A stretch of DNA of 64,000 bases, from NCBI RefSeq assembly GCF_944384735.1, contig NZ_CALWUN010000002.1, forward strand, positions 17,770 through 81,769, in the 5' to 3' direction. The notes beneath the pieces were generated by a model. It did not search any database and had not been told where the DNA came from. It saw only the letters and a list, made by a program, of their open reading frames with translations. The position numbers and the translations under genes are program-made. How positions within the stretch are numbered: the stretch's first letter is position 1; every line of letters begins with the position of its first letter. Positions 25,365-62,359 of the stretch are shown piece after piece. This stretch comes from an uncultured Agathobaculum sp. Its GTDB lineage: Bacteria; Bacillota; Clostridia; Oscillospirales; Butyricicoccaceae.

Positions 25365-25451
25365 GTTGCTGAAGGCAACGCTGTGTCCTCTGTCTGGACG
25401 TTTTTTAATCGTTCTGGCCGATGGATGATGTTGCCTTGAAAAATGAAAGTT

Positions 25452-25576
25452 CTGTTTCAGGGCGGAGTGAAATTCTCCACCGGCAGTATACGGGCCAATG
25501 CCCGAGAGTCTGCGAGCCGCAAGGCATGACGGGTGAAAATCCCGACCGACGGTTATAGTCCGGATGGAAGAAACAG
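25452..25576 (+). ncRNA. FMN riboswitch (RFN element)
   Basis: The conserved FMN aptamer is clear: TTTCAGGGCGGAGTGAAATT, TCCACCGGCAGTA, GCCCGAGAGTCTGCGAGCC, GACGGGTGAAAATCCCGA, CCGACGGTTATAGTCCGGATGG, closed by a P1 helix (CTGTTTC with GAAACAG). Binding of FMN should lock the aptamer and let the terminator at 25597-25627 form. It controls the riboflavin transporter gene that follows. Confidence 0.97.
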
Positions 25577-25596
25577 GTGTATTCCGGTACGTCTGC

Positions 25597-58060: not shown

Positions 58061-58231
58061 ATGAACCATGCTCAGTGTAATAAGGCGATCCGCTGCACGG
58101 TCAGCCAGTGCGCCAACCATTGTGACAGCGCAGAATACTGCGCGCTCGACTGCATTACCGTCGGCACCCACGAGGCCAATCCCACGGTCGACCAGTGCAC
58201 GGACTGCAAGTCCTTCCAGCGCAAGTGCTGA
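58061..58231 (+). CDS. DUF1540 Cys-rich small protein
   Basis: A 56-residue protein with eight Cys residues: IRCTVSQCANHCDSAEYCAL, an IxVGTHEANP segment, then CTDCKSF and a last Cys. This is the DUF1540 pattern, found in Clostridia and Bacillus, some members of which are made during sporulation. Metal binding is probable. The start follows AAAGGAGG. It is 67 bp after the previous small gene. Confidence 0.82.
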   Translation: MNHAQCNKAIRCTVSQCANHCDSAEYCALDCITVGTHEANPTVDQCTDCKSFQRKC

Positions 58232-58242
58232 TTTGACGGCCA

Positions 58243-58277
58243 AAGAGGAGGATACCGCAGCGCGGCATCCTCCTCTT
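58243..58277 (+). terminator. Hairpin after the DUF1540 gene
   Basis: AGAGGAGGAT pairs with ATCCTCCTCT around an inner CCGC/GCGG stem, 11 bp past the stop codon. The T-run after it is weak (CCGCTTTG). Confidence 0.62.
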
Positions 58278-58297
58278 CCGCTTTGTGCCAGACGATA

Positions 58298-58326
58298 TTG
58301 ACAAATTCCTGTCAAGGGAATATACT
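58298..58326 (+). promoter_or_regulatory. Strong promoter of the leader RNA/TM1266/ABC operon
   Basis: TTGACA (58298-58303) and TATACT (58321-58326) are 17 bp apart, so transcription should begin near 58333. Confidence 0.9.
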
Positions 58327-58332
58327 GGTTTC

Positions 58333-58470
58333 GTAGATGACCTTTCCCGGAAGCAATGCTGACGGGCAAGCCGCTACGCAACAATGAATCTGCTGTCAAA
58401 GATATGGTCTGCGATGAAAGAGCCGGAATGTCATGTTTGCGTCCTGCATCGCATGCGGGACGCATTTTTT
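58333..58470 (+). ncRNA. Structured leader with a terminator, candidate riboswitch of unknown ligand
   Basis: A leader of about 138 nt follows a consensus promoter and ends in an intrinsic terminator. A closing helix is formed by ATGAC (58337-58341) with GTCAT (58430-58434), extended by TTCC (58344-58347) with GGAA (58425-58428). The terminator has a 12-bp stem (58438-58449 with 58453-58464), a CGC loop and six T. TGCGATG (58410-58416), inside the closed domain, can instead pair with CATCGCA (58447-58453) of the terminator, which would give an antiterminator. I could not match it to any riboswitch class I know. Confidence 0.65.
58438..58470 (+). terminator. Regulatory terminator of the leader RNA
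   Basis: A 12-bp stem, triloop CGC and six T lie 20 bp before the first start codon of the operon. Confidence 0.92.
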
Positions 58471-58490
58471 ATGGGAAGGGGCATCCAGAC

Positions 58491-58727
58491 ATGGAAAAAC
58501 GCATTGCGATTTTGGGTGTAATCGTGTCTGACCGGGACGCCAGCGCCGAGGTCAATCGACTGCTGCATGAGTACGGCGAGCACATCGTCGGCCGCATGGG
58601 GATACCGCGGGCGGGCTGCTCGGTGATTACGGTCGTGCTGGAATGCACGAGCGATACGCTCAACGCACTGTCCGGCAAGCTCGGCCGGCTGAAAAGCGTA
58701 CAGGTCAAATCCATGACAGCCAAGTGA
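58491..58727 (+). CDS. TM1266-like iron-only hydrogenase system putative regulator
   Basis: A 78-residue ACT-like protein. It opens EKRIAILGVIVSDRDASAEV and continues with GEHIVGRMGIP and an SVITVVLECTSDTLNALSGKLG segment, the standard TM1266 form. The family is named for its place near [FeFe]-hydrogenase maturation genes, but its role is unproven. Here it heads an ABC importer operon instead. The ribosome site AAGGGG lies 10 nt upstream, right after the terminator. A ligand-binding regulator is my inference. Confidence 0.85.
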   Translation: MEKRIAILGVIVSDRDASAEVNRLLHEYGEHIVGRMGIPRAGCSVITVVLECTSDTLNALSGKLGRLKSVQVKSMTAK

Positions 58728-58743: not shown

Positions 58744-59760
58744 ATGAAAAAATGGTTGGCAGCACTGCTGGCAGGCGCGATGGCATGTTCGCTCATTGGC
58801 TGCGGCACATCGCAGACGCAGGACACACAGACGCAGCAACCAACGGATGCAGTAGAAGCAGGCTATGAGGATGGCGTGACCACACGCGTTGCCGCGCTCA
58901 AGGGGCCTACTGCAATGGGACTGGTCTGCCTGATGGGTGAAAACGAGGGTGAGGACGCGCATTACACCTTTGATCTGTATACGGCAGGCGATGAGATCGT
59001 GCCGCTGATTGCCAAGGAAGAGGTCGACATTGCCCTCATTCCGACCAATCTGGCTGCGACGCTCTATCAGAAAACTGAAGGCGGCGTACAGGTGCTGGAT
59101 GTCAACGCAGGCAATGTGCTTTACGTTGTTTCGCATGACGAAACACTGACCGATTTGAGCGGCCTCAAAGGCAAGACCGTCTATATGACCGGCAAGGGCA
59201 CTTCCCCCGACTGGACATTGCAATATCTGCTCAATCAAGCGGGCATGAGCGCATCGGACCTAACGATCGAATTTAAGACAGAAGCAACCGAGGTCGTGTC
59301 TGCGCTGGCACAGGACGCGACGGCCATCGGCATCCTGCCGCAGCCGTTTGCAACCGTCGCCCTGATGCAGGATCAGGAGCTTTCGGCCAACTTCCCGCTT
59401 GAGAACGCGTGGAAGGAATACAGTCCGGACGGCAGCGGTATTGCGACCGGTGTCACGGTCGTGCGCAAGGCCTTTGCTGAGGAGCACCCGGCGGCGGTCG
59501 CACAGTTTATGCTCGACCATCAGGCGTCGGTCAAGGCTGCGGAGGAGGATCCGGCCGGCGCAGCGGCACTGATCGAGCAATACGGCATCGTCAAAGCGGC
59601 GGTCGCGCAGCAGGTGATCGAAAATTTCAATCCCATGGTTGCGACAACCGGCGATGCCATGCAGACATGGGTTTCCGGTTATCTGGAAATGCTCTATGAG
59701 ATTGCGCCCGACGCAGTAGGAGGAAAACTGCCGGATGAAGGCTTCTACTATCTGGGATAA
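58744..59760 (+). CDS. ABC importer substrate-binding lipoprotein (NMT1/SsuA type)
   Basis: A 338-residue lipoprotein. The signal peptide ends in the lipobox LIGC (about 17-20), followed by a Thr/Gln-rich linker. The mature part has the two-lobe fold of NMT1/THI5 and SsuA proteins, with VDIALIPTNLAATLYQK, LKGKTVYMTGKGTSPDWTL and IGILPQPFATVALM. Such proteins bind pyrimidines, sulfonates, nitrate or thiamine precursors. It is the second gene of the leader-controlled operon. Confidence 0.88.
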   Translation: MKKWLAALLAGAMACSLIGCGTSQTQDTQTQQPTDAVEAGYEDGVTTRVAALKGPTAMGLVCLMGENEGEDAHYTFDLYTAGDEIVPLIAKEEVDIALIPTNLAATLYQKTEGGVQVLDVNAGNVLYVVSHDETLTDLSGLKGKTVYMTGKGTSPDWTLQYLLNQAGMSASDLTIEFKTEATEVVSALAQDATAIGILPQPFATVALMQDQELSANFPLENAWKEYSPDGSGIATGVTVVRKAFAEEHPAAVAQFMLDHQASVKAAEEDPAGAAALIEQYGIVKAAVAQQVIENFNPMVATTGDAMQTWVSGYLEMLYEIAPDAVGGKLPDEGFYYLG

Positions 59761-60502
59761 AAAATGGCTGCGCCGGCTGCTGGCCGCCCTCTTTTGGCTA
59801 GCAGTCTGGCAGATTGCGGCGCTTTCGCTGCCCAAGTTACTGTTCGCAGGCCCTGCACAAACCGTGCAGAGCCTGCTTTTCATGCTGCGAAAGGCCGACT
59901 TCTGGCTGTCCATCCTGTTCTCCGTCAGCAAGATCGCAGGCGGTTTTATCCTGGCGTTTGCACTTGGATGCCTGCTGGCGGTGTTGGCACACCGGATAGC
60001 GCTTGCCCGCATGCTGCTCGAGCCCGCCGTGCAGGTGATGAAAAGCGTGCCGGTGGCCTGCTTTGTGGTGGTTGCGCTGATCTGGGTGCGGTCCGCTTGG
60101 ATATCGGTGCTGACGGCGTTTTTCGTTGTTTTCCCCGCTGTCTACATCAATTTGCAGCAGGGGCTTCAAAACACGGACGAAAAAATGCTGGAAATGGCGC
60201 AGGTATTCCGCCTGACCGCCGGCAAGCGTCTGCGTGCAGTGTGGCTGCCGGCAGTACTCCCCTATCTGCTCAGCGCGTGCCGTGTATCGGTTGGTATGGC
60301 GCTCAAAGCGGGTGTCGCGGGCGAGATTATCGGTCTGCCGCGCTGGTCGATCGGTGAACAGCTATACTTATCCAAGCTCTATCTGAACACAGCCGACCTG
60401 TTTGCGTGGTCGCTGACCATTCTGGCGCTCAGTCTTGTGCTGGAAAAGCTGCTGGTGCGCGCGGCATCGTCGCTGGAAAAGAAATGGGGTGCGACGGCAT
60501 GA
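59735..60502 (+). CDS. ABC importer permease (SsuC/TauC type)
   Basis: A 255-residue permease with about six membrane helices. The EAA loop appears as LEMAQVFRLTAGKRLRAVWLP and GMALKAGVAGEIIGLP follows, as in nitrate, sulfonate and thiamine-precursor importers. Its start overlaps the end of the binding protein gene by 26 bp, after GGAGG. It pairs with the ATPase encoded next. Confidence 0.9.
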   Translation: MKASTIWDKKWLRRLLAALFWLAVWQIAALSLPKLLFAGPAQTVQSLLFMLRKADFWLSILFSVSKIAGGFILAFALGCLLAVLAHRIALARMLLEPAVQVMKSVPVACFVVVALIWVRSAWISVLTAFFVVFPAVYINLQQGLQNTDEKMLEMAQVFRLTAGKRLRAVWLPAVLPYLLSACRVSVGMALKAGVAGEIIGLPRWSIGEQLYLSKLYLNTADLFAWSLTILALSLVLEKLLVRAASSLEKKWGATA

Positions 60503-61062
60503 TCGTGTTTCAAAATGTCAGCAAGGCCTTTGACGGCAAGTCGGTGCTGCGGGACGTCAGCTGGACAATCCGACCGGGTGAGCGGTGGCAGGTCTGCGGG
60601 CCGTCCGGCATCGGCAAGACGACGCTGCTGCGGCTGCTGCTGGGTCTGGAAAAGCCGGACAGCGGCAGCATCATCGGGCAGAACCAAGTTCGTTTTGCGC
60701 CGGTTTTTCAGGAAGACCGTTTGGTCGAGCATTGGGGCGCATCGGCCAACGTCGGGCTGGTTTGCAGCGATACGGCGCGTGTGCGGGAAATCCTATGCAC
60801 GTTATTGCCGGAGGATGCGCTCGACCAGCCGGTTCACACACTGTCGGGCGGCATGCGTCGCCGTGTCGCGTTGGCGCGCGCGCTGGCGGCGGACAGTGAC
60901 ATGCTGGTGCTGGACGAACCCTTCGCCGGATTGGACGAGCAGACTGCGCAGCAGGCGATGCAGACCATCATGCAGTATCGCGCAGGACGCGCGCTTGGGC
61001 TCGTTTCACACGGCAGCGAGGTGCTGCCCGCTGGCTTCCTCACCTTCAACCTGACCGAATAA
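60499..61062 (+). CDS. ABC importer ATP-binding protein, compact
   Basis: A 187-residue ATPase, shorter than the usual 240-260. It keeps Walker A GPSGIGKTTLL, the signature LSGGMRRRVALARAL, Walker B MLVLDEPFAGLDE and the switch VSHG. The regions between Walker A and the signature are trimmed. The start overlaps the permease stop (ATGA), so all three transport genes are coupled. Confidence 0.9.
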   Translation: MIVFQNVSKAFDGKSVLRDVSWTIRPGERWQVCGPSGIGKTTLLRLLLGLEKPDSGSIIGQNQVRFAPVFQEDRLVEHWGASANVGLVCSDTARVREILCTLLPEDALDQPVHTLSGGMRRRVALARALAADSDMLVLDEPFAGLDEQTAQQAMQTIMQYRAGRALGLVSHGSEVLPAGFLTFNLTE

Positions 61063-61153
61063 GAGCGGCCGCCCTTTCCGGTGGCCGTCCTGCCTGTATG
61101 GTTGCCAAAGCGCCGCAGGATGTGGTAAGATAATGCGTAAAGGTTGTGATGAT

Positions 61154-62359
61154 ATGCAAAAAGGGGACGCGGCAAAACTCAAGCTGCTGCTGGCGGGCAT
61201 CTCCGCCCGGCTAAATAAGAACAAGGACTTTTTTGCGCGGGCATCCGGCACATTTGTTTCGGGCAAAAAACAGTTCGAAGCCCGCCTGACGCGCGACGGC
61301 GAGGACTACCGCTTGCGGTTTCAGGGTGCGGAACGCACGGTCGATGCGGACGGCTTTTGCGCATTTTTCGCTGAACAAGCGGAAAAATACGACGAAGCGG
61401 TGCTTGAATATACCGAGCGCGGCTCTGTTGTCACACTGTCGGTCACGACGCGCGGCGTACAGATGAAGCAGGCCGAGCGGCAGGCGACGGCCGAGGAAAA
61501 AGCCGCTGCGGCCAATCCCCTGCTCGATCCCGGCCGGCAGTACCTGATCCGGGTCGACCGCGCGGCGGCGCTTCTGCGCGAGATCGGCATCCTGACCGCG
61601 GACGGCAAGCTGAAAAACGATATGATCCGCAAGTACAACCAGATCGACCACTATGTCGAGCTGGTCGCACCGATGTTCGCGCAGGATGACAGCGACGACG
61701 AGATCGTGCTGCTCGACTGTGCCTGCGGCAAATCCTATCTCAGCTTTGTCATGAACTACTATCTGCATGAGGTGCTGCGCCGCCGCTGCCGCGTGATCGG
61801 CGTTGACATCAACGAGCATGTCATCGCGGAAAGCCGCGCGATGGCCAAACGTCTGGGCTATCACAATATGCGGTTCCAGTGCGCCGATTTACGCACCTAC
61901 CAGCCGCCCGCAGATGTGACGGCGGTCATTTCACTGCACGCCTGCGATATCGCGACCGATTTGGCGCTTGCGACCGCTATCCGGGCGCGCGCCAAGTATA
62001 TCGCCTGCGTGCCGTGCTGCCATAAGGAACTGCTTGACCAGTACACCCTGCCCGGCCTCGAACCGCTGACCAAGTTCGGCGTGTTCAAGGCGCGCTTTAA
62101 CGATGTGCTGACCGACAGCATGCGCGCGCTCAGGCTGGAAGCCGAAGGCTATAAGGTGTCGGTCGTCGAATATATTTCGCCGCTGGACACGCCGAAAAAC
62201 CTGCTCATCCGCGCTACGCGCGTCGGGCGGGACAACCCGCGCGCCCGCAGGGAATACGACGCGGTGCGCAGCCTGCTCGGTACGACCTCTGAGCTGGACC
62301 GCCGCTGTACGGACATGGAGGGCGAGTTTTTCATTACAGACGACGACCTGCTCGGGTAA
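61154..62359 (+). CDS. Class I SAM-dependent methyltransferase
   Basis: A 401-residue protein. The N-terminal 140 residues lack a known fold. The SAM-binding motif is LLDCACGKSYLSFVMNYY (about 190) with the acidic end of motif II in RVIGVDINEHVIAES. A later HACDIATDLALATAIRA and CVPCCHKELLDQY match the Methyltransf_32 family, which modifies RNA or proteins. I chose ATG 61154, 10 nt after AAAGG; ATG 61133 is less likely. It is 91 bp after the ABC ATPase gene and may be a separate unit. Confidence 0.8.
   Translation: MQKGDAAKLKLLLAGISARLNKNKDFFARASGTFVSGKKQFEARLTRDGEDYRLRFQGAERTVDADGFCAFFAEQAEKYDEAVLEYTERGSVVTLSVTTRGVQMKQAERQATAEEKAAAANPLLDPGRQYLIRVDRAAALLREIGILTADGKLKNDMIRKYNQIDHYVELVAPMFAQDDSDDEIVLLDCACGKSYLSFVMNYYLHEVLRRRCRVIGVDINEHVIAESRAMAKRLGYHNMRFQCADLRTYQPPADVTAVISLHACDIATDLALATAIRARAKYIACVPCCHKELLDQYTLPGLEPLTKFGVFKARFNDVLTDSMRALRLEAEGYKVSVVEYISPLDTPKNLLIRATRVGRDNPRARREYDAVRSLLGTTSELDRRCTDMEGEFFITDDDLLG

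Follow-up and report, generated by a model that had tools for sequence, protein, structure and literature searches.

The operon that begins at position 58491 of our window, the whole stretch of 64,000 nucleotides analysed here from an uncultured Agathobaculum sp., raises two questions: what kind of RNA leads it, and to what that RNA might respond. Our best overall explanation, to which we give about an even chance as a whole, is that the leader belongs, as a tandem variant, to a cis-regulatory RNA class of Clostridia that has not been described before and is built around a hairpin module bearing two conserved internal loops.

All window features named below lie on the forward strand. The first gene of the operon (58491–58724) encodes a TM1266-family protein, a stand-alone NikR C-terminal/ACT-like domain (PF21699, 91.4 bits; TIGR03959, 93.1 bits), whose structure model has a pLDDT of 95.4 and finds PDB 2nzc and NikR as its best fold matches. 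It is followed by genes for a substrate-binding lipoprotein of the SsuA/NMT1 type (58744–59760; PF09084, 30.3 bits), an ABC permease (59735–60502; PF00528, 46.3 bits) and an ABC ATPase (60499–61062; PF00005, 101 bits), the four forming one operon. Against the SsuA family the lipoprotein scores 72.6 bits, under the curated cut-off of 163.5; a profile made from 19 of its relatives matches PDB 3hn0, titled 'Nitrate transport protein' (E 5e-26), and its closest named relatives belong to Agathobaculum and Butyricicoccus. A methyltransferase gene (61133–62356; PF13679, 131 bits) lies a short gap 3′ of the importer operon. Directly 5′ of the leader is a gene for a small DUF1540 protein (58061–58228; 38.8 bits), and after it comes an inverted repeat (about 58243–58279) that recurs by eye in similar form in some near relatives.

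The tandem leader and its near relatives

The leader at 58333–58470 is a real element, made up of two copies of a module of about 30 nt and a terminator. It stands behind a sigma-70-type promoter, TTGACA-17-TATACT at 58298–58326, in which 11 of 12 bases agree with the consensus, as the initial annotation of this DNA had read it; promoter-like boxes are also seen by eye in near relatives. The module follows a constant plan of helix, internal loop, helix, second internal loop (RA/GA or AA/GC) and short hairpin, then AAG. Module 1 (58333–58377) appears in the minimum-energy fold, in RNAalifold on 15 leaders and in pair counts, except that its closing helix (58333–58336/58374–58377) comes from the minimum-energy fold and pair counts and lies outside the RNAalifold prediction. 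Within it are the pairings CUU/AAG (58342–58344/58368–58370) and CCCG/CGGG (58346–58349/58363–58366), the internal loop GA/GA (58350–58351/58361–58362) and the hairpin AGC/GCU (58352–58354/58358–58360). Module 2 (58389–58421), supported by RNAalifold for its inner helices, by the minimum-energy fold and by a match to the single-module model R2 described below, consists of UCU/AGA (58389–58391/58419–58421), a loop GC/AA, UGUC/GAUG (58394–58397/58413–58416), a loop AA/GC and the hairpin AGAU/GUCU (58400–58403/58407–58410).

An intrinsic terminator follows at 58438–58470, with a stem of 12 pairs (58438–58464) and a U tract running to 58470; it ends about 20 nt 5′ of the TM1266 start, so the terminator noted earlier before the first gene stands. 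The 3′ side of module 2 carries the anti-terminator strand, UGCGAUG at 58410–58416, exactly complementary to CATCGCA at 58447–58453 in the terminator. This seven-nucleotide match, also part of the initial annotation, holds among relatives, where the strand is conserved and covarying and 5–7 of its 7 positions are kept in each of 14 aligned leaders. The long-range helix once thought to close the domain (58337–58347 with 58425–58434) fared worse: it is present in the window sequence, and its conservation is poor, with 67 of 126 pair cells standard in 14 relatives. In the relatives its 5′ strand has a local alternative, the closing helix of module 1 (58333–58336 with 58374–58377 in the window), in which 5 of 6 pairs have changed on both sides and only 76.7% of cells are paired.

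Leaders of the window type were found in 16 genomes of the genus, in the regions upstream of TM1266 or of the binding-protein gene. The tandem alignments omit L003 and L010 (contig ends), L018 (a near copy of L017) and L024 (first half not found); alignment A2, with 15 tandem leaders and the near copy left out, also excludes five leaders of a divergent form (L019–L022 and L025). Given A2 unaided, RNAalifold predicts the inner helices of both hairpins, the same two hairpins that appear in the minimum-energy fold. Pairing in A2 is 90.7% and falls to 30–51% when the partner strand is slid by 1–3 columns. Across the tandem structure 7 of 26 pairs have changed on both sides, with a covariation score of 0.214 against 0.152 ± 0.012 for shuffled alignments (0 of 500 as high); the second hairpin shows little variation in A2, with zero pairs changed on both sides.

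Folding energy adds little to this comparison. The 181 nt at 58320–58500 fold with a z of -1.99 (8 of 200 shuffles as good), which taken alone is weak evidence. The minimum-energy fold of 58333–58432 contains both modules, and its stability is no better than that of shuffles (z -0.16). When the transcript is truncated at 58453, the anti-terminator helix forms at the expense of module 2 and leaves module 1 in place, again at a shuffle-like energy (z 0.19).

A model of the tandem alignment, R1, matches 16 of 25 genus genomes at E < 1e-16 and 25 of 87 family genomes at E up to 0.1. Across the order it matches 16 of 394 genomes at E up to 0.01, ten in the genus and six that are unrelated by eye. 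These six (L095–L100) and a further group of weak matches (L090–L093) were rejected by eye as coding stretches or simple hairpins, and two others (L086, L087) are the already-known leaders of L025 and L022. Three weak matches in other species (L088, L089, L094) show a similar element 5′ of TM1266-like genes, and for this reason TM1266 upstream regions were surveyed generally.

A single-module class and its gene context

The survey covered 112 TM1266 upstream regions (L101–L210) from genomes of the order. The consensus of the module is approximately CCU-GA-CAY-NA-AG...CU-GM-GUG-AA-AGG. A strict pattern matches 14 of the 112 regions against 0.2 expected from mononucleotide shuffles, one of the 14 (L189) lying off the module, and further variants are seen by eye. 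From about 30 candidates in these regions 24 modules were picked by score and eye for alignment A5, which is therefore biased towards the motif; none is a near-group leader of the window type. In A5, 93.2% of cells are paired, 6 of 8 pairs have changed on both sides, and the covariation score is 0.529 against 0.233 ± 0.028 for shuffled alignments (0 of 500 as high). The bias is partly offset by slid and shuffled controls and by 14 judged matches outside the training set, some of them closely related to training members (G241 to G183, G123 to G102).

Model R2, trained on A5, was searched within 450 nt 5′ of TM1266 genes. At E up to 10 it matches 41 of 80 loci (22 of the 61 non-training loci), with 12 matches elsewhere in 608 kb; at E up to 1 it matches 31 of 80 (12 non-training), with 2 elsewhere. 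The remaining 39 loci give no match within that distance at E up to 10; by eye some of the R2-negative loci hold variants of the module and some appear module-free. L025 scores 27.2 bits and L088 26.1 bits. In the window R2 picks up only module 2 at E up to 10, and weakly (58386–58426; 17 bits, E 0.26, search space 342 kb); module 1 gives no match at that threshold.

In many genera of the order the module, often as a single copy, lies 5′ of TM1266-hydE-hydG operons, which serve H-cluster maturation of [FeFe]-hydrogenase. With a threshold of E up to 0.01, R2 finds 38 places in 37 of 287 order genomes, the window genome not among them. Three places near contig ends were excluded from the context count, and all 35 that could be judged precede TM1266, hydE or hydG: 30 by coordinates before TM1266 and one more by eye (L264), with four before hydE or hydG and no TM1266 between (G073, G318, G005, G211). 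Seventeen places lie outside the training set, and the 14 judgeable ones all share this context. As to the operons themselves, the first gene after TM1266, assigned in 88 of 110 loci, matches HydE in 66 and HydG in 7; of 66 second genes 44 were scanned, and 36 of these match HydG.

Beyond the order, an exact pattern searched in 392 class genomes matched twice (L216, L217), both times before TM1266, against one match for the reversed control; L217 is a training locus, and L216, from another order, precedes TM1266-hydE. A second pattern also matched twice (reversed control 0), once in another order before TM1266-hydG (L219) and once inside a coding sequence (L218), which was discarded.

The association extends to copies before hydG and to hydE-hydG operons. 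Among the 12 off-TM1266 matches at E up to 10, five immediately precede hydG (L147, L164, L165, L172, L198), and with L219 and L223 these make up the loci where hydG after the module was recognised by eye; at L213 and L214 a HydG match follows by position. Operons of hydE-hydG that lack TM1266 also bear the module (L261, L262, L263; genes by eye, HydG confirmed in L262 and L263). In six loci the module copy overlaps, by eye, the ribosome-binding site of hydG: L147 (6077–6114), L164 (5365–5406), L165 (5366–5408), L172 (5305–5346), L198 (2979–3019, reverse strand) and L219 (1873–1911). At these copies the switch is likely to act on translation. In G146 the HydG locus (L272) has no R2 match.

The importer is a partner in only some lineages. 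Within the genus of the window, TM1266 and the importer make up the operon; HydG exceeds its cut-off in 8 of the 25 genus genomes, half as many as bear the tandem leader by R1, and HydE over cut-off is absent from the window genome, whose assembly is 83% complete. Since tandem leaders occur in genomes without HydG, an H-cluster intermediate is hard to defend as ligand there. In another family, L171 (one of the 12 off-TM1266 matches, before a binding-protein gene) and L187 have TM1266-importer operons that encode related binding proteins (42–43% identity), with two tandem module-like stretches upstream by eye, which suggests a possible link between tandem leaders and the importer. Tandem module-like stretches are also seen by eye 5′ of other TM1266 genes (L205, L122, L124, L125, L134, L135, L141), which speaks against the tandem form being special to the importer. 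Among ten TM1266 loci from importer-bearing Lachnospiraceae and allies R2 matches only three (L220, L221 and, before hydG, L223). Lachnospiraceae importer leaders were assigned a module by eye in L049, L055–L058, L060, L063 and L064 and part of one in L065, weaker evidence because R2 detects none of these at E up to 10.

Because the module stands mostly before TM1266-hydE-hydG, and before the importer only in some lineages, any idea of the ligand must cover both. The initial proposal that the ligand is the importer's own substrate is unsupported or too narrow.

The proposed switch and its likeness to known systems

A script found a terminator in 31 of 39 mostly single-module leaders and in 17 of 20 tandem leaders; the swap tests were run on these, omitting the other 8 and 3. 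L025 is in both sets, and a few of the 31 (e.g. L134) are tandem. In the 31, pairing between the 3′ strand of the module and the terminator arm of the same leader averages -12.11 kcal/mol, against -8.75 (sd 0.46) with swapped arms; for the 17 tandem leaders the corresponding energies are -10.25 and -8.71 (sd 0.34). In neither set was any of 5000 swaps as low. Comparison thus shows that the helices of the module covary and that the 5′ arm of the terminator is an alternative partner for the module's 3′ strand, so that module and anti-terminator are mutually exclusive. The earlier description of the leader as unclassified and transcription-attenuating, with two folds that exclude each other, agrees with this covariation and with the Rfam searches.

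At the gathering score of Rfam 15 the window leader matches no family, nor do the leaders of 20 related loci, which show only tRNAs and one Gut-1 RNA. Homologous leaders do exist before TM1266 in Clostridia, with covarying helices. In the whole window the same search finds only one tRNA and an FMN riboswitch (25449–25579; 96 bits). A permissive scan aligned 58402–58470, part of module 2 plus the terminator, with sau-6072 (E 0.056; 20.4 against a gathering score of 50), and this candidate was rejected. The thiamin/HMP-PP family, considered on account of the NMT1 domain, was ruled out, there being no Rfam match and that switch being embedded in its terminator. The HMP-PP riboswitch (thiS motif) is an ON switch that may contain a pseudoknot and has its aptamer inside the terminator stem (PMC6478431). 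It shares with the present leader a small RNA with an intrinsic terminator near cofactor-synthesis genes; here, in contrast, the terminator comes after the module, whose 3′ strand serves as the anti-terminator. A cis-regulatory RNA for [FeFe]-hydrogenase maturation was found neither in Rfam 15 nor in the open-access literature searched, which did not take in a survey from 2017 that presents 224 candidate RNAs; the main texts of PMC8632094 and PMC6429828 contain no mention of hydrogenase, hydE or hydG.

The best reading of the anatomy, from which alone the direction is taken, is an OFF switch in which a stabilised module means a formed terminator. Since the anti-terminator helix of the truncated transcript forms as module 2 opens, a folded module would mean terminator, and OFF. 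A binder would attach to the folded module; the bound module would keep its 3′ strand, the terminator would form and the operon would be OFF. Without binder the 3′ strand would open the terminator and the operon would be ON. At some hydG copies, where by eye the 3′ strand of P1 lies in the ribosome-binding site, OFF would be set at translation. The two modules of the window could give a sharper response, or allow two signals to be read.

Glycine and guanidine-II riboswitches are tandem attenuators of transcription. The present leader resembles attenuating riboswitches in its aptamer-like loops, the exclusion of terminator and anti-terminator, its tandem modules, and its use of terminator or ribosome-binding-site platforms; it differs in having no Rfam match at gathering score. 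We know of no validated riboswitch class with a gene context of H-cluster maturation. The mechanism is of a known kind, and the RNA class appears to be new.

What may bind the module

The binder would most likely be a small molecule tied to H-cluster assembly and to the signal of TM1266, making the leader a riboswitch and placing the window's importer in the same regulon. We place this reading slightly ahead of the strongest competitor because the conserved loops are aptamer-like. Spelled out, it is a widespread, hitherto undescribed riboswitch class sensing a molecule of H-cluster assembly or TM1266's signal and repressing TM1266, hydE, hydG and, in some lineages, a dedicated SsuA-type importer, through one or two modules of about 30 nt with terminators or ribosome-binding sites as output; in this full form we hold it with slightly less than even confidence.

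The strongest competitor, a serious one that we judge the somewhat less probable account, takes the module for a protein-binding site: TM1266 itself would bind the hairpin, perhaps only with a ligand or metal, and attenuate its own, the hyd and the importer operons. Attenuators bound by protein include those of PyrR, the ribosomal protein L10 leader, TRAP and HutP, and in the PyrR and ribosomal-protein types a protein regulator binds leader RNA. As in such systems, where the regulator gene is commonly first in the operon and the leader has alternative folds, TM1266 is often the first gene 3′ of the leader; the systems differ in that TM1266 has a NikR C-terminal/ACT-like fold and its binding to the module is putative.

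Co-occurrence fits this proposal in several ways. TM1266 is present in all 37 order genomes with an R2 match at E up to 0.01 (in G393 by eye), against 144 of 297 overall, a comparison made partly circular by the drawing of the R2 training set from TM1266 loci. In G023 a tandem leader (L023) precedes the importer with TM1266 not in the locus but elsewhere in the genome. Among importer-holding genomes of Lachnospiraceae and allies 10 of 11 have TM1266, and the exception, G818 (L053), is module-free by eye. Of the TM1266-less genomes 20 were tested, and HydG was found in just one, G087, where the module is not matched at the hydG locus. Against these stand the absence of a recognised module from about half of TM1266 loci, and L046, where TM1266 is in the genome and yet no module is seen by eye before the importer.

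The protein itself can also be read both ways. Its basic residues R4, H26, R35, K63 and K73 are invariant in 20 sequences, which fits an RNA binder, but domains of the NikR/ACT type have metals or small molecules as ligands, and TM1266 itself, NikR and ACT domains are its best fold matches; two entries for ribosomes and one for an engineered ribosomal-protein fold come lower down among the best 50 matches listed. The co-occurrence of TM1266 and module fits either TM1266 as the binder or a metabolite that the RNA and TM1266 alike would sense.

That a leader peptide or T-box governs the choice of fold, through the state of a ribosome or tRNA, we think very improbable. Alternative terminator and anti-terminator folds are typical of both, and an ATG at 58356 opens a frame that continues into TM1266. 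The T-box lacks an Rfam match in the window leader and in the 20 related loci; as for a leader peptide, module and linker lengths differ by non-multiples of three, no conserved frame is seen by eye, and conservation sits in internal-loop bases and paired positions. Least credible of all is a constitutive terminator behind a promoter with chance structure upstream, which the shuffle-like free energy of 58333–58432 would allow and which is contradicted by the covariation, the terminator swaps and the gene-context enrichment.

One RNA switch would be common to hydrogenase maturation, TM1266 and the importer, and would therefore offer a handle on all three. The leader would give direct access to the control of hydrogen production in gut Clostridia, to the role of TM1266, whose structure PDB 2nzc bears the title of an uncharacterized protein, and to what the importer, an orphan of the SsuA type, takes up.
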